Shown here one piece after another: positions 3,906 to 19,032 of a DNA stretch of 20,823 nt (its first letter is position 1; each line of letters opens with the position of its first letter). The translations under genes and the position numbers were made by a program. The notes under the pieces are model-generated. The model had not been told where the DNA came from, searched no databases, and saw only the letters and a list, made by a program, of their open reading frames with translations. Origin of the DNA: Candidatus Parcubacteria bacterium (GTDB lineage Bacteria; Patescibacteriota; Patescibacteriia; Patescibacteriales; UBA12075); assembly GCA_023139655.1 (NCBI GenBank), contig JAGLNE010000033.1:1-20823 (forward strand), written 5' to 3'.

Positions 3906-5450
3906 ATGACTAAAAAGACTACTAGAGTAAAAAAAACCGATCTAAGTGTTACCATATTATTAATATTGGGAATTTTGGTGGTGGCAAACTTTTTTTCATA
4001 TAAATTATTCCTTCGCTTAGATTTGACCGAGAATAAGATTTTTTCTATATCTGATGCGACCAGGAATACGATGCGGGAGCTGGATGACGTAGTAAACATT
4101 AAAGCCTATTTTAGTTCTACTTTGCCCAGTCAGGTATTGTCTTTAAAACAAGAGGTAGGGGATGTGTTGGATGAATATGAGGCTTACTCAGGCGGGAAGG
4201 TTAAGGTTGAGTTTATTGACCCAAGTGATGACGTTGATTTGGCCCAGGAGCTGGCCATCAAAGGAATCCCGCAATTGACTTTTGAAGTCTATGAAAAAGA
4301 CAAGATGCAGCTGGTGAATGGATATATGGGAATCGCAATTAGTTACAGCGATAATATTGAAGTAATTCCGGCGGTTAAACGCGATACCAGCGACTTGGAA
4401 TATCAAATAACTTCCGCAATTAAAAAAGTAACCGTGGACGAGATGGCTACTATTGGCTATCTTAGTTCGCACGGAACGCATAGTTTAACCGAAAGTTTAA
4501 AAGCGGCTGACCAGGGTCTAAGGGAATTATACTCAGTAAGGGAAGTTTCTCTAAGCGAAGAAGAGCCAAGTATCGTCGAAGACATTGATACTCTTTTAAT
4601 CGTTGGTGCCAAAGAAAAATTTTCAGGTGATCAGCTGCGGGCAATAAACGCGTTCGTGGTTCGAGGCGGCGCCCTATTGATACTGCAAGACGGTGTGTCA
4701 ATCGGGCAAGGCCTAATGGCCCAAAAAAATAACACTGGTTTGGATACTTTATTAAAGCAATATGGTATTAGTCTTAATCATGATTTGATAGCGGACAAGC
4801 GCAGCGGGGTGGCTTCATTTACCCAAGGTTTCCTGACTTTTTCCAGCGATTATCCTTTTTGGCCCAAGATCACTAACGCGGGATTTAATCCGGATGCGAG
4901 TGCGGTCTCCAATTTGGAGAATGTAATTTTACCTTGGGCTAGCAGCGTTGTGGTTGATACCGCTAAAATCAGTGAAGATAGCTTTAAATATTTAGCCTTT
5001 ACTACCAATGATGGCTGGCGTGTAAGTGATAATTTTAATATTTCACCAAATGGTTCAGCAGTGCCGCAAGGCGAGCAAAAGCGTTATAATTTGGCGCTGG
5101 TCGTGAACGGCACTATTACTAACGCATATCCGGAAGAGGGAGCAGCGGAAAAAATAAACGGAAAGATTGTAGTTGTCGGGGACTCTGATTTTGTAACGGA
5201 CGGCTTTCTTCGTAATAATCCGGATAATTTAACTTTGTTCCAGAATTTGGTTGATACTTTAAGCTTTGACGAAGACCTTATCAGTATCCGCTCCAAGGGT
5301 GTCACTAGCCGCCCCGTAAAAGAGCTCTCAGACGGCTCACGGGCGACAATTCGTTATTTAAATATATTTGGATTAACCTTATTGGTAATTGCCCTTGGTA
5401 TGCTTAGGTATTTTATGAGGAGAAAAAGTCGGTTTGTAGATGATATCTAA
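3906..5450 (+). CDS. GldG-like ABC transporter auxiliary protein
   Basis: Membrane-anchored extracytoplasmic component of Gld-type ABC exporters (ABC_transp_aux family). The ATG at 3906 gives 514 aa; an in-frame TTG at 3891 would lie in the repeat and is unlikely. An N-terminal membrane helix (about residues 13-31) is followed by the family hallmark LDLTENKIFSIS (about 38-49). A large extracytoplasmic domain comes next, with a ThuA/GATase-like segment that includes the GYLSSHGTHSL stretch near 186-196. It ends with a C-terminal helix (about 483-500) and a short basic tail (RYFMRRKSR). Both termini are thus likely cytoplasmic. It forms a set with the ATPase and permease upstream and the DUF4340 protein downstream, as in many Bacteroidetes and CPR genomes. 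Confidence 0.9.
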   Translation: MTKKTTRVKKTDLSVTILLILGILVVANFFSYKLFLRLDLTENKIFSISDATRNTMRELDDVVNIKAYFSSTLPSQVLSLKQEVGDVLDEYEAYSGGKVKVEFIDPSDDVDLAQELAIKGIPQLTFEVYEKDKMQLVNGYMGIAISYSDNIEVIPAVKRDTSDLEYQITSAIKKVTVDEMATIGYLSSHGTHSLTESLKAADQGLRELYSVREVSLSEEEPSIVEDIDTLLIVGAKEKFSGDQLRAINAFVVRGGALLILQDGVSIGQGLMAQKNNTGLDTLLKQYGISLNHDLIADKRSGVASFTQGFLTFSSDYPFWPKITNAGFNPDASAVSNLENVILPWASSVVVDTAKISEDSFKYLAFTTNDGWRVSDNFNISPNGSAVPQGEQKRYNLALVVNGTITNAYPEEGAAEKINGKIVVVGDSDFVTDGFLRNNPDNLTLFQNLVDTLSFDEDLISIRSKGVTSRPVKELSDGSRATIRYLNIFGLTLLVIALGMLRYFMRRKSRFVDDI

Positions 5451-5451
5451 A

Positions 5452-5530
5452 CACGAAGATAACGAATAAAAACTAATGTAACGAATTATATTTCGTATAT
5501 TTCGTGTCTATTCGTTTAATTCGTGTATAT
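5452..5530. repeat. Palindromic spacer (AACGAAT / ATTCGTGT words)
   Basis: The left half repeats CACGAA/AACGAA words and the right half repeats TTCGTGT/ATTCGT words, forming an imperfect inverted repeat between the GldG-like and thioredoxin-like genes. No T-run follows, so it is not a standard terminator. Confidence 0.75.
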
Positions 5531-5534
5531 ATTT

Positions 5535-5801
5535 ATGAAAGTATTAAAATTCGGGGCAATATGGTGTAAGGAATGTTTGGTAATGCGCCCAATGTGGGAA
5601 GAGATTGAAGCCGATATGCCCAATCTAAAAACAGAATATTACGACGCGGATTTAAATCCGGAAGTAATAAAAAAATATGAGGTAAAAAATTTACCGGTAT
5701 TTATTTTTTTGGATAAAAACGACAATGAAATATCGCGTCTTAAAGGCATCCAGAATAAGGAGGACCTAGTTCGAATAGTTAAAGAGAATATTGATAAGTA
5801 A
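5535..5801 (+). CDS. Thioredoxin-like protein
   Basis: Small predicted thiol-disulfide protein. The ATG at 5535 gives 88 aa (MKVLKFGAIWCKEC...). The redox pair is C11/C14 in WCKEC, and the cis-Pro motif is KNLPVFIFL (Pro near residue 57). It lacks the first helix and strand of the longer thioredoxins and matches the short single-domain form common in CPR bacteria. No signal peptide is seen, so it is probably cytoplasmic. An in-frame GTG at 5523 would only add MYIF from the repeat. It sits inside the ABC exporter cluster between the GldG-like and DUF4340 genes. Whether it serves that exporter is unknown. Confidence 0.88.
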   Translation: MKVLKFGAIWCKECLVMRPMWEEIEADMPNLKTEYYDADLNPEVIKKYEVKNLPVFIFLDKNDNEISRLKGIQNKEDLVRIVKENIDK

Positions 5802-10558: not shown

Positions 10559-11731
10559 ATGCAAATAAAAACAATTAAAAAATTGCCTAAAATAAGCGGT
10601 CAAGTAGTACTTCTGCGTAGTGATTTTAATGTACCAATTGAACATGGAATAATAAAAGATGATTTTAAAATCAGAAAAGCTTTGCCCACGCTTAATTATT
10701 TAATAAATAATGGGGCAAAAGTTGTGATATTGACTCATCTTGGTCGTCCTAAATCTGCCAAGGATAAGCACGATTTAAGTACTCGGCCGATCGCGGCCAG
10801 GCTTAGTAAGTATTTGCGTAAGACAATTAAACATTTGGATGTTTGTTATGGATTTGAAGTAGAAAAAATAATAAGAAAAATGAAACCCGGACAGGTAATT
10901 CTGCTGGAAAATATTAGGTTTGAAGCCGGGGAATATAAAAACTCTAAGCGCTTGGCTAAAAAATTAGCCAGTATAGCCACTTATTACGTTAACGACGCTT
11001 TCGGAGTTTCTCACCGGAACCACGCTAGTTTGTCGGCAATTAAAAATTATCTGCCAAGCTTTGCCGGGTTGGTCGTGGCTGAAGAAATCAAGCATTTAAG
11101 GCAAATTTTACAACCAAAAAAGCCATTAATTTCTATGATTGGCGGAGTTAAATTAGCCACTAAAATGCCATTAATTAGGAAATTATCCCGCATTTCGCAT
11201 CGGGTGCTGGTGGGTGGGGGTTTGGCTAATGACTTTTTAGCCGCCCATGGCCTGGAGATTGGCAAGTCAATAAGCGACAAAAAAAGTATTGCCTTAGCTA
11301 AGAGGATACATAATAAAAAAATAATACTACCGCTTGATGTGGTGGTTAGCAGCCGCGTTACAAAATGGCGTGTACGAGTTGTCTCAGTGAATAAAGTAGC
11401 TAAAAACGATTATATTTTCGATATTGGCCCGCAGACGATTAAATTATATGCAAAGCTTATTAAGCAGGCCAAAACCATTTTGTGGAACGGCCCTATGGGC
11501 ATGTTTGAAGATAACCAATATAAACACGGCACTTTGGCGCTGGCCCAGGTGATGGCCGCCCACTCTACGGGTAAGGCCTTTGGTGTGGCTGGCGGCGGCG
11601 AAACCGTGGCGGCGCTTAAGCAGACCAAAATGCTTGAGCACGTGGACTGGGTTTCAACCGGCGGCGGGGCAATGCTTTCGTTTTTAATTGGCGAAAAAAT
11701 GCCCGGGTTAAAAGGATTGTACGTTAAATAG
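10559..11731 (+). CDS. pgk: Phosphoglycerate kinase
   Basis: Converts 1,3-bisphosphoglycerate and ADP to 3-phosphoglycerate and ATP, an ATP-yielding step of glycolysis, in the cytoplasm. The 390-aa protein has the expected motif order: LLRSDFNVP (about 19-27), THLGRPKSA (about 60-68), LLENIRFEAGE (about 115-125), NDAFGVSHRNHAS (about 144-156), a GGVKLATKMPLI segment (about 193-204), WNGPMGMFE (about 308-316) and GVAGGGETVAAL (about 342-353). The GGGET and GGVKLATK forms differ from the common GGGDT and GGAKVSDK but keep the Lys and the Gly loop. It starts a transcription unit behind an extended -10 promoter. eno and gpmI, which act after it, lie about 3-5 kb downstream. Confidence 0.96.
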   Translation: MQIKTIKKLPKISGQVVLLRSDFNVPIEHGIIKDDFKIRKALPTLNYLINNGAKVVILTHLGRPKSAKDKHDLSTRPIAARLSKYLRKTIKHLDVCYGFEVEKIIRKMKPGQVILLENIRFEAGEYKNSKRLAKKLASIATYYVNDAFGVSHRNHASLSAIKNYLPSFAGLVVAEEIKHLRQILQPKKPLISMIGGVKLATKMPLIRKLSRISHRVLVGGGLANDFLAAHGLEIGKSISDKKSIALAKRIHNKKIILPLDVVVSSRVTKWRVRVVSVNKVAKNDYIFDIGPQTIKLYAKLIKQAKTILWNGPMGMFEDNQYKHGTLALAQVMAAHSTGKAFGVAGGGETVAALKQTKMLEHVDWVSTGGGAMLSFLIGEKMPGLKGLYVK

Positions 11732-14896: not shown

Positions 14897-14932
14897 TGTT
14901 ATATTATAATAATAAATTAAAATTTTTTGATA

Positions 14933-16195
14933 ATGGCAAAAATTAAAAAAATTAGCGCAAGAGAGATTTTGGATTCAAGAGGTAATCCGACCGTTGAAAC
15001 CAAGGTTGAGCTTGATGGTAGTATTATCGCCAAGGCGAGCGTGCCGTCAGGAGCCAGTACCGGCATACATGAGGCCTGGGAAATGCGCGACGGCGACAAA
15101 AAGCGTTATGGTGGCAAAGGGGTGCTTAAGGCAGTTCATAACGTGAATACCAAGATAAATAAGGCTTTGGCTGGTATGGACTGTAATAAACAGGAAGAGG
15201 CTGATGAAGCCATGATCAAATTGGATGGAACGAAAAATAAGAAAAAATTGGGCGCTAATGCGATTTTGTCAGTTTCTCTGGCCGTGGCGCGAGCCGGGGC
15301 AGTCGCTAACAATTTGGAGCTTTACGAATATATTAGAAAGACATATAAATTTGGTAGGAATAAAATAAAATTGCCTACGCCATCATTTAATATTTTTAAC
15401 GGCGGCACCCACGCTGATACTAACTTAGACTTCCAAGAATTTATGATATTACCACTTACTAGAACCGCCTTGGCGGAAAAAGTGCGGATGGGGGCGGAGA
15501 TATTCCATGAGCTGGGGCATGTGCTTAAGTCTGCCGGTTTGGATACAGACGTAGGCAATGAAGGCGGCTATGCACCGGATATTCATTCCAGTATTCAGGC
15601 ATTGGAATTTATCAGCGCGGCTTGTCTTAACGCCGGTTATCAACCGGGTAAAGACATTGGTTTTGGTATTGATGTCGGCTCCTCAGGGCTTTATAATCCA
15701 AAAACCAAAGAATACATTTTCAAATTGGATAATGCCAGTTTTACCAGCGCGACCCTTACCGGTTTATACTATGAATGGTTTCGTAAATTTCCGATTATTT
15801 CAATTGAAGACGGACATGGCGAAGACGACTGGGAGGGCTGGCGCGATTTTAATAAAGAGCTAGGAAGCGAAATGCTTATTATCGGCGATGATCTGTTTGT
15901 TACCAATATTGACAGGTTGCGGCGTGGTATCAAAGAGCATGCGGCTAACGCGATACTTATTAAACCAAATCAGGTAGGGACGCTTAGCGAAACTATTCAA
16001 ACCATTAAGCTGGCGCAGAAACATAATATGAAGACCATGGCTTCGCATCGTTCAGGTGAAACCTGTGACACCTTTATTGCCGATTTGGCCGTGGCTGCTA
16101 ATTGTGATTACATCAAATCCGGGTCATTGTCGAGGAGTGAGCGGCTGGCGAAATATAATAGATTAATGGAAATAGAAATTAAGCTAAACGCTTAA
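14933..16195 (+). CDS. eno: Enolase (phosphopyruvate hydratase)
   Basis: Dehydrates 2-phosphoglycerate to phosphoenolpyruvate, step 9 of glycolysis. The ATG at 14933 gives 420 aa; an in-frame TTG at 14927 only adds two residues. Motifs seen: DSRGNPT (about 13-19), SGASTG (about 38-43), GANAILSVSLA (about 106-116), QEFMILP (catalytic Glu), NEGGYAPDI (catalytic Glu), the metal Asp in FGIDVGSSG, the metal Glu in SIEDGHGEDDW, the metal Asp in IIGDDLFVTN, LIKPNQVGT (catalytic Lys), SHRSGET and YIKSGSLSRSER (substrate Lys). All core residues are present, but several loops are unusual: DVGSSGLYN for the common DxAASEFY, and IEDGHGEDDW for IEDPLAEDDW. It lies upstream of both gpmI-type genes. Confidence 0.96.
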   Translation: MAKIKKISAREILDSRGNPTVETKVELDGSIIAKASVPSGASTGIHEAWEMRDGDKKRYGGKGVLKAVHNVNTKINKALAGMDCNKQEEADEAMIKLDGTKNKKKLGANAILSVSLAVARAGAVANNLELYEYIRKTYKFGRNKIKLPTPSFNIFNGGTHADTNLDFQEFMILPLTRTALAEKVRMGAEIFHELGHVLKSAGLDTDVGNEGGYAPDIHSSIQALEFISAACLNAGYQPGKDIGFGIDVGSSGLYNPKTKEYIFKLDNASFTSATLTGLYYEWFRKFPIISIEDGHGEDDWEGWRDFNKELGSEMLIIGDDLFVTNIDRLRRGIKEHAANAILIKPNQVGTLSETIQTIKLAQKHNMKTMASHRSGETCDTFIADLAVAANCDYIKSGSLSRSERLAKYNRLMEIEIKLNA

Positions 16196-16197
16196 TA

Positions 16198-16345
16198 AGA
16201 AACAAGACACAAGAAACAAGGATACAAACAAGACACAAATTCAAAATTAAAAACAGTTTGTATCTTAGAATTTGTATCTTTTAATTTGTTTGTTTCTTGT
16301 GTCTTGTATCCTTGTATCTTATTTCAAGTTTCTTGTATCTTGTAA
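16198..16345. repeat. Palindromic spacer (ACAAGA/TCTTGT), copy A of an 87-nt direct repeat
   Basis: Imperfect palindrome of AAACAAGACACAAG words mirrored by CTTGTGTCTTGTATCC words, between eno and gpmI. Bases 16243-16329 are identical to 18000-18086, so gpmI is bracketed by an 87-nt perfect direct repeat. The wording also matches the spacers around the S23 gene. Confidence 0.85.
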
Positions 16346-16363
16346 CTTTGGTTTATTAAAGTA

Positions 16364-17950
16364 ATGAGTAAAAAAAATAAAATAAATTCAAATCTTCCCC
16401 TCATCCTCATCATCCTTGACGGGTGGGGAGTTGATAAGCCGAATAAGGGAAATCCAATTAGTTTGGTTAAGACCCCGACCTTGGATGGTTTAATGAACAA
16501 ATACCCGAGTACCAAGCTTAGCGCGCATGGTAAGTTTGTCGGTTTGCCTGCCGGGCAGGTGGGCAACTCAGAAGCCGGACACATGAATATCGGGGCCGGA
16601 AGGCTGGTGGAGCAGGATTCGGTAAGGATAAGCAAGAGCATTACGGATGGTACATTTTTTAAAAATTCCGCTTTTTTGGGAGCAATTCGGCACGTCCAGA
16701 AAATGGGTTCAAAAATGCATCTTGTTGGTATGCTTGCCAATGGCCAGAGTCCGCATTCGGATCCGGGGCATTTATTGGCCCTGCTTAAATTAATGAAACA
16801 GCGTGGGGTGGGCCCGGTATCTCTTCACTTGTTTACCGATGGCCGCGATTCGCCCAAATACGCGTCATTAAAATTAATATATGACCTACAACGCCGTTTA
16901 ACTAACAATGAAATGATCGCTACTGTGATGGGCCGTTTTTATGCCATGGATCGGAAAAAGAAATGGGACAGGACAGCATTAGCTTATAATGCTCTAATAA
17001 ACGGAACCGGGATGAAAGCCAAGACCGCTCGCGACGCTATAACTGAAGCATATAACCGCGGTGAAAGTGATGAGTTTATTTCGCCTTTTGTAATTAGTAA
17101 AACCAAGAGAAATAATACGAGGATTAAAGATGGTGATAGTGTAATATTTTTTAATCTTCGCTCAGACCGGGGCCGGCAGCTTAGCAAAGCCTTTGTCCAA
17201 AACGATTTTAACAAGATGAACCGCGGTGCGTTTAAGCGTCCGAAGAAATTAAAACATTTATATTTTGTCGCGCTGGCAGACTTTGGCCCGGACCTGGATG
17301 ATATTTTAACCGCCTACCCCAGCTTTGATATTAGAGAAACTCTGCCGATGCAGCTTAAAGATTTAAAACAATTATATATAGCGGAAACGGAAAAATATGC
17401 TCATGTCACTTATTTTTTTAATGGTGGCTATAGCGGAACCGTTGCCGGGGAAGAACAATACATGGTAGAGTCGCCGGATGTTAAGTCGTATGATCAGACG
17501 CCGATAATGAGCTCGGACAAATTAAGTCGCCGGGTTATTCGAAATTTACGGTTAAGCAATAAGCACCTAGGCCCGAAATATGATTTTACTTTACTGAACT
17601 TTGCTGCCCCGGATATGATTGGGCATACCGGCAACCTGGAGGCAGCCAAGAAAACAGTTAAACACATTGATAAATATGTCAGCAAGATCGTCAAAGCCTA
17701 TCTCGCGGCCGAAGGTACAGTGCTTATTACAGCTGATCACGGAAATATTGAAAAAATGATCAATCCGGAAACACAGGAAATTTATACCGAACATACTACG
17801 AATTTAGTACCGTTTATTGTTGTTAATAAAAAACAAAAAAATAAAATAAAATTGCGTCCCAAAGGTATTTTAAGTGATATTGCCCCGACAGTATTAAAGC
17901 TAATCGGGAAGAAAAAGCCTAAGGAGATGAAGAGGAGCGCGTTATTTTAG
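16364..17950 (+). CDS. gpmI: 2,3-bisphosphoglycerate-independent phosphoglycerate mutase
   Basis: Interconverts 3- and 2-phosphoglycerate through a phosphoserine intermediate, using two Mn ions. The 528-aa length and motifs are complete. Metal Asp D19 is in LDGWG, and catalytic S69 in GLPAGQVGNSEAGH, followed by MNIGAGR. The inserted phosphotransferase domain is at about 90-340 (HSDPGH, LFTDGRDSPKYA, GRFYAMDR, FFNLRSDRGRQL). The phosphatase half resumes at IAETEKYAHVTYFFNGG, then has PDMIGHTGN (Asp and His metal ligands), ADHGN and EHTTNLVPF (metal His). The final GILSDIAPTVL motif is present. All catalytic and metal residues are seen. It is flanked by the identical word-repeat spacers and followed by a degenerate paralogue. 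Confidence 0.97.
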   Translation: MSKKNKINSNLPLILIILDGWGVDKPNKGNPISLVKTPTLDGLMNKYPSTKLSAHGKFVGLPAGQVGNSEAGHMNIGAGRLVEQDSVRISKSITDGTFFKNSAFLGAIRHVQKMGSKMHLVGMLANGQSPHSDPGHLLALLKLMKQRGVGPVSLHLFTDGRDSPKYASLKLIYDLQRRLTNNEMIATVMGRFYAMDRKKKWDRTALAYNALINGTGMKAKTARDAITEAYNRGESDEFISPFVISKTKRNNTRIKDGDSVIFFNLRSDRGRQLSKAFVQNDFNKMNRGAFKRPKKLKHLYFVALADFGPDLDDILTAYPSFDIRETLPMQLKDLKQLYIAETEKYAHVTYFFNGGYSGTVAGEEQYMVESPDVKSYDQTPIMSSDKLSRRVIRNLRLSNKHLGPKYDFTLLNFAAPDMIGHTGNLEAAKKTVKHIDKYVSKIVKAYLAAEGTVLITADHGNIEKMINPETQEIYTEHTTNLVPFIVVNKKQKNKIKLRPKGILSDIAPTVLKLIGKKKPKEMKRSALF

Positions 17951-17956
17951 AGTAAA

Positions 17957-18110
17957 TTACAAGATACAAGAAACAAGGACGCAAACAAGATACAAATTAA
18001 AAATTAAAAACAGTTTGTATCTTAGAATTTGTATCTTTTAATTTGTTTGTTTCTTGTGTCTTGTATCCTTGTATCTTATTTCAAGTGTTCTGTATCTTTT
18101 AATATTGTTT
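17957..18110. repeat. Palindromic spacer (ACAAGA/TCTTGT), copy B of an 87-nt direct repeat
   Basis: Same organisation as the spacer before gpmI. 18000-18086 equals 16243-16329 base for base at an offset of 1757 nt. The left arms differ by a few substitutions and small indels, and the sequences diverge after the shared core. Confidence 0.85.
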
Positions 18111-18120
18111 TATTATACTA

Positions 18121-19032
18121 ATGAAAAATAAAAACAAAATACCCCTCATAGTTATCTGCATCCTTGACGGCTGGGGAATTGCTCCGTTAAGTGAAGGTAA
18201 TGCGATTAGCCAGGCCGACACCAATAATTTCGACAAATTGATTGCTGATTATCCGGTTTGTACGCTTAAAGCCTCCGGGTCGTCTATTGGATTATCAAAA
18301 AATCAGGCTGGTAATTGTGAGATCGGACATTACTGCCTGGGAACAAGCAGGAAGTGGCCCATGAATACGGTAAATAATGCTAGCAGTACTCTTTGCGGGT
18401 GCCTCAGGCAAGCCGGATATAAATTAAGTTACTTATCAGACTCGGAAAAGATCGCTTATATTACGTATTTTTTAAATGGAGGAGTTGATCAGCTAGTTGA
18501 AGAAGCCGAAATAATAATTAGCCCCAGTCCAAGGGTGGATAATTATAAGGAAGCGCCGGAGTTGGCTTTGGCGGGCCTTTATAAATACGCAAAAAAAGCC
18601 ATTAAGCAAAGGGCCCAAAACGCGATAATAGCGAATTTTTCTAATTTGGATCTAGTCGCTCGCACCGGCTCGCTTACTGCAAGCATAAAATCTACCGAAA
18701 TAATTGATGGTATGATCGGGGACCTGGCCGGTTTAGTAAGCGACAAAAAAGGGATATTGGCAATAGTAGCTGACCATGGAAATGCTGAGGCCATGATCGA
18801 TCCGGCCACGGGCGCGATAAATGATGCGACTACTGACAATCCGGTCCCCTTTATAATAGCGGGTCAAGAATTTTTAGGCCGCAACATTGGTTGGCAAGAC
18901 GTAGCCGGTAATGATCTAAGCGTGTTAAAACCAATCGGCAGCCTGCTTGATTTTACTCCAACAATACTTGATTTATTAGATATTAATAAACCAGCCGTAA
19001 TGGAAGGAAAAAATTTGATTAATAAGAAATAA
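18121..19032 (+). CDS. Short GpmI-like protein lacking the insertion domain, catalytic Ser replaced by Cys
   Basis: 303-aa member of the alkaline phosphatase superfamily, closest by motif to the phosphatase half of the GpmI encoded just upstream. Retained: LDGWG (D16), GLSKNQAGNCEIGH (56-70 region), AYITYFLNGG (112-121), D177, ADHGN (D218, H219), NPVPF and DFTPTILDLL. Changed: the nucleophile position is C66 instead of Ser. The HTG His is R181 (ARTGS), and the HTTN His is replaced (T237 in an ungapped alignment). The roughly 230-residue inserted domain is cut down to about 35 residues (76-110). One metal site (D16, D218, H219) thus looks intact and the other eroded. Mutase activity is unlikely. 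It could be a different hydrolase, a regulatory pseudoenzyme or a binding protein. The open frame and intact fold motifs argue against a pseudogene. Confidence 0.85.
   Translation: MKNKNKIPLIVICILDGWGIAPLSEGNAISQADTNNFDKLIADYPVCTLKASGSSIGLSKNQAGNCEIGHYCLGTSRKWPMNTVNNASSTLCGCLRQAGYKLSYLSDSEKIAYITYFLNGGVDQLVEEAEIIISPSPRVDNYKEAPELALAGLYKYAKKAIKQRAQNAIIANFSNLDLVARTGSLTASIKSTEIIDGMIGDLAGLVSDKKGILAIVADHGNAEAMIDPATGAINDATTDNPVPFIIAGQEFLGRNIGWQDVAGNDLSVLKPIGSLLDFTPTILDLLDINKPAVMEGKNLINKK

Follow-up and report, generated by a model that had tools for sequence, protein, structure and literature searches.

A GpmI-like protein without the phosphotransferase insertion, conserved beside enolase in Patescibacteria, is probably a mutase-dead pseudoenzyme

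Introduction

The stretch of DNA analysed here (the window, 20,823 nucleotides of contig JAGLNE010000033.1 from a Candidatus Parcubacteria bacterium) carries a complete gene for GpmI, the 2,3-bisphosphoglycerate-independent phosphoglycerate mutase (iPGM), and directly after it a 303 aa open reading frame (ORF; 18121..19032, + strand, ATG start) that encodes a GpmI-like protein without the phosphotransferase insertion. We refer to such proteins as S. What does a paralogue of a glycolytic enzyme do once it has lost nearly half of its length and key parts of its active site? We consider it likely that S is a conserved pseudoenzyme which arose from a second gpmI copy (copy B), is dead as a mutase, and most plausibly serves as a binding partner in the lower-glycolysis gene set. 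Since relatives keep the gene under strong selection despite the lost length and active-site parts, S probably does a new, non-enzymatic job.

The S protein and its active site

S matched PF01676 (Metalloenzyme) at residues 10-288 with 150.9 bits, above the Pfam cut-off of 24.3, and is predicted to retain the alkaline phosphatase fold of this family. Its likeness to GpmI is not due to chance, since it matched TIGR01307 with an E-value of 3.3e-59; the score of 200.7 bits did not reach the cut-off of 330.65. The score against NF003897 (170.3 bits) was also below the cut-off of 862, which the full-length neighbour gpmI copy A misses as well (456). Copy A (16364..17950, +, 528 aa) contains both PF01676 and PF06415 (iPGM_N), and every catalytic residue checked in it is present. 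In S, Pfam gave no match to PF06415, and the alignment has a clean gap at residues ~77-80 (18349..18360, +) in place of the insertion of ~230 residues. The genome, rated 89.65% complete, has two PF01676 matches, S and gpmI-A.

Three of the seven catalytic positions are changed in S. The nucleophile motif GNSEAGH reads GNC66EIGH (C66 codon, 18316..18318), R181 (18661..18663) stands at the His of HTG (H407), and T237 (18829..18831) at the His of HTTN (H462). Kept are D16 (18166..18168; D12 of GpmI, a site-2 metal ligand), K110 (18448..18450; K336), D177 (18649..18651; D403, site 1) and D218-H219 (18772..18777; D444 and H445, site 2), all on the + strand. The metal sites of iPGM consist of D/H/H and D/S/D/H ligands, as given in the available portion of PMC5382265. 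S thus resembles GpmI in the fold and sequence of the phosphatase domain and in its operon place after enolase, but differs from it in lacking the insertion, the Ser nucleophile of GNSExGH and site 1, and in scoring below the family cut-off. Compared with the alkaline phosphatase superfamily, the equivalents of D12, D403, D444 and H445 are shared, whereas the window S has Cys at the nucleophile position and one of the two metal sites. Nucleophiles of this superfamily are Ser, Thr or formylglycine, and formylglycine sulfatases carry a C-x-P/A-x-R motif; in S the residues after C66 are E-I-G-H. The sequence-only reading of this DNA, which had described a 303 aa paralogue beside a complete gpmI, cleanly stripped of its insertion, with Cys for the Ser nucleophile, Arg for the HTG His, a replaced HTTN His and no C-x-P-x-R motif, was borne out on each of these points.

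Erosion of catalytic residues under selection

Among the best 120 of 1943 phmmer matches, six proteins of 300-314 aa are closely related to S (70-83% identical) and four other short ones are 38-40% identical to it, and a profile search gave further short relatives among the matches listed. An eight-row profile scan of genome contigs mostly returned ordinary GpmI. Of the 111 genomes of the order, 102 had a match, as did 11/12 of the window's family, where the usual arrangement is a tandem of full-length gpmI copies A and B (8 genomes; B is cut by the contig end in G005). Forty short-frame loci were fetched from the order, of which 39 encode S (37 in lineage f15, two in f19), the last (G047) being a piece of GpmI cut by the contig end.

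We aligned 50 S proteins, comprising the 37 of f15, the two of f19, the window's and ten database proteins (P0073 and the G102 protein have the same sequence). D12 was kept in 49, D403 in 38, H445 in 21, H407 and D444 in 8 each, S62 in two and H462 in none; both S62 counts belong to a different loop, GNSE occurring in no S and GNCE in 8. All seven residues were found together in 0/50 S as against 23/23 full-length proteins (two identical to others). Cys stands at the nucleophile position in 8 of the 46 short proteins retrieved, whereas the 213 full-length proteins retrieved have Ser (211) or Thr (2) there and never Cys. In f15 and f19, S is also missing the loop that carries the nucleophile and the Asp of site 2. 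Nevertheless, the S ORF is intact in 37 of 39 f15 genomes, and the ratio of nonsynonymous to synonymous substitution rates (dN/dS) is 0.03-0.14 among f15 and f19 relatives. S is under strong selection in these relatives.

An enzyme fold whose catalytic residues are lost is what characterises a pseudoenzyme, and residue loss together with selection gives this option, one of several offered by the sequence-only reading, good support across the relatives. As in pseudoenzymes generally (PMC5106787, in its available text), the fold is kept after catalytic loss and selection acts on relatives. Unlike them, S descends from a mutase of glycolysis and occurs in bacteria with small genomes, and its adjoining enolase is altered in many f15 loci.

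Operon context and altered enolases

The usual f15 order is a beta-propeller protein, a DUF5656-like protein, a PDZ protein, pgk, eno and S, with divergent-PAP2 and gyrB beyond S on the opposite strand. Enolase lies directly upstream of S in 37/37 f15 loci (one enolase is cut by the contig end). In the 36 loci with full-length eno the gap to S, based on mechanically chosen starts, is -41 to +73 nt, and 32/36 fall between -41 and +7. The window, like f19, has the order eno, gpmI-A, S. Its eno (14927..16195, +) retains 12/12 active-site residues checked, and further upstream lies pgk (10559..11731, +), assigned by similarity to the phosphoglycerate kinases (PGKs) of related loci.

In f15, at least one of the 12 active-site residues is changed in 25 of 36 full-length operonic enolases (e.g. 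L057, L072, L084, L087): one in 5 loci, two in 9 and three or more in 11, with 5/12 left in G075 and G076. PGK motifs appear largely intact by eye. A changed operonic enolase is associated with a second enolase match in the genome (changed with two matches, 24; changed with one, 1; intact with one, 8; intact with two, 3; Fisher p 4e-5, kinship uncorrected). The second enolases score about 359-391 bits against PF00113 and the operonic ones 222-301, and the second enolase of G044, an f13 genome, keeps 12/12 active-site residues.

Operons of f13, f3 and f17 were seen among 19 further stretches. There, the gpmI slot of G043, G044, G048-G051, G014 and G099 (loci L169, L170, L174-L177, L181, L182) holds proteins that keep the insertion and have lost the catalytic motifs; in G046 all seven residues are present, but the protein has GGSE and its Arg motif is altered, and short forms occupy the slot in G045, G052, G053 and G054 (the last cut by the contig end). 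Because these GpmI-like proteins and the f15 enolases are altered too, loss of catalysis in this operon looks recurrent, as judged from the residues. It is tempting, though for now tentative, to suppose that the lower-glycolysis operon of one Patescibacteria order is becoming a non-catalytic set, GpmI-B first and then enolase turning into pseudoenzymes that strong selection maintains, with canonical copies elsewhere running the pathway. Dead GpmI and enolase would then form a complex of new function, and the window would be an early stage with one metal site and a Cys ligand.

Origin of S

The spacing from VPF to PTIL is 40-43 residues in S and B-type copies, 26-31 in copy A and ordinary bacterial GpmI, and 34-38 in three other full-length proteins. 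The extra piece, G(R/K)..G....DLS, is represented in the window S by GRNIGWQDVAGNDLS (18877..18921, +), is common to S and GpmI copy B, is not in copy A, and by its sequence marks the origin of S. A FastTree of 121 rows (117 unique) placed all 68 S in one clade with local support 0.74, and an iqtree of 41 sequences grouped its 16 S with ultrafast bootstrap (UFBoot) 89, and these with two insertion-bearing full-length proteins with UFBoot 97; the trees did not include the f13 short forms, and long branches could help S cluster. Descent of the window S from the GpmI-B clade of its own family was rejected by the approximately unbiased test (p 0.008 with three close S; 0.012 with P0023 added).

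Could S still be an enzyme?

There is a minor but real chance that S remains an enzyme in the window subclade, namely a mono-metal, thiolate-liganded phosphatase or phosphotransferase with C66 in metal site 2. The eight proteins of this subclade, the other seven being 39-83% identical to P0001, are invariant at D16, G64-N65-C66-E67, G69-H70, K110, D177, D218 and H219. According to the available part of PMC8938923, the S102C variant of E. coli alkaline phosphatase binds a zinc ion through its Cys and is active in transphosphorylation; given this precedent, C66 could by analogy be a metal ligand. On the other hand, site 1 is lost (His at the H462 position in 0/8 and at the H407 position in 1/8), sister lineages without the nucleophile loop stay under selection, and the phosphoglycerate-binding residues have gone with the insertion. 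Of the options in the sequence-only reading, a one-metal thiolate enzyme retains some probability for this subclade, where the four site-2 residues are invariant. In the conservation check which that reading had called for, C66 is fixed in the subclade and loss of the insertion is common to all S, but the R181 position is variable (five Arg, and one each of His, Cys and Leu), so that Arg as a functional replacement finds no support. A phosphoglycerate sensor has likewise become less plausible, because the phosphoglycerate-binding His, Asp and Arg residues named in the available portion of PMC5382265 fall within the lost insertion.

Which enzyme carries the mutase step?

Among the 39 f15 genomes, S was found in 37, iPGM_N in 9 and GpmA above cut-off in 27, and no genome had both iPGM_N and GpmA. 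S co-occurs with iPGM_N in 9 genomes and with GpmA in 25, and 28 of the 37 S-bearing genomes have no iPGM_N match. PF10143 (archaeal-type phosphoglycerate mutase) gave no match in 111/111 genomes of the order. Since S occurs with either type of mutase, it is, on this gene content, neither needed as a mutase nor dependent on GpmI in most f15 genomes. Separately, in G002, G003, G099 and G103 (L036, L037, L183, L187) an additional, more ordinary full-length GpmI is encoded on a contig other than that of the enolase or the operonic copy.

This distribution bears on the proposal that S, acting as a decoy or by dimerising with it, modulates the adjoining full-length GpmI. S does lie directly after gpmI-A in the window and in f19; however, 25 of the 27 f15 genomes with GpmA and without iPGM_N still carry it, and iPGMs are described as monomeric in the available text of PMC5382265. 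The modulator role suggested from the sequence is therefore weakened for the family, and we regard it as quite improbable. Still less credible is a decaying duplicate heading for loss. Stepwise erosion of the catalytic residues and the lack of an S match in G077 and G078 would fit decay, but the intact ORFs in f15 and the low dN/dS of the f15 and f19 relatives speak against it. That S is an active mutase with its transferase domain supplied in trans, as its position in the copy B slot might suggest, can practically be dismissed in view of the lost nucleophile and metal ligands and of the 28 S-bearing f15 genomes without iPGM_N.

Proposed route to a binding partner

We propose that gpmI-B, the second copy, which lay downstream of enolase, was stripped of the phosphotransferase insertion and of metal site 1, and that its nucleophile Ser became Cys or disappeared. 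Loss of the nucleophile loop and of the site-2 Asp in f15 and f19 would have followed, an order suggested by the tree. Going by the residues lost, mutase activity would have ended, and selection would have kept the folded phosphatase domain in relatives, in one operon with enolase. S would then most likely act by binding to another protein of the lower-glycolysis gene set, in a structural or regulatory role; enolase as that partner is a guess from adjacency.

Several observations weigh against the pseudoenzyme interpretation. The dN/dS range comes from f15 and f19, not from the window subclade. A purely structural protein need not have the intact metal site 2 that the residues indicate in 8/8 members of that subclade. 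G077 and G078 (f15) have pgk-eno and no S match, and therefore S is dispensable there. Rates of S covaried similarly with those of eno, pgk and the PDZ protein (26 genomes; partial r 0.50, 0.47 and 0.40), and thus enolase is not singled out as the partner. Finally, in the f15 genomes G060, G070 and G094 no mutase of the types searched (iPGM_N, GpmA, PF10143) was found; G094 is rated 95% complete.

Other features

In a class-wide sample of 380 genomes, the sole short frame beyond this order among the matches listed was in G158 (L198, about 4800-5751). It encodes a 317 aa insertion-less GpmI with GNSESGH, HTG, ADHGN and the His before VPF. Both this protein and S lack the iPGM_N insertion, but unlike S it keeps these motifs, and its host lies outside the order. 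It is possibly catalytic, as its motifs suggest, and is perhaps a free-standing phosphatase. To equate insertion loss alone with a dead enzyme is thus unsafe, since this insertion-less protein has intact motifs.

In the window, a direct repeat of 166 nt (92% identical, with internal palindromes) lies directly before gpmI (16202-16367) and before S (17959-18124), and is dispersed in the genome with 37 matches (palindromes counted on both strands). Between 15900 and 19150 there were 8 promoter-like sites (9.2 expected) and no terminator-like sites (3.0 expected), and an Rfam scan of the window gave no match.

Significance

Searching by title and the start of the abstract, with subscription literature mostly not covered, we found no paper on a GpmI pseudoenzyme and none on Falkowbacteria together with phosphoglycerate mutase. 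Broken iPGM pseudogenes, two of the bacterial type and one of the archaeal type, are mentioned in the available text of PMC2964296. Short relatives of S that have a source name are called 'hypothetical protein' at NCBI (some from Ca. Falkowbacteria) or 'phosphoglycerate mutase' at jgi, and the latter label on S-type proteins is a warning for annotation. In glycolytic enzymes, catalysis and a side job are difficult to tell apart. Such side jobs are reported for many of them (PMC8256278, in its available portion). Across dozens of genomes S has lost catalytic residues step by step, yet its fold, its operon place and, in relatives, strong selection persist, so that a role outside catalysis becomes directly testable for a glycolytic protein. 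Small genomes, too, can retain dead enzymes.
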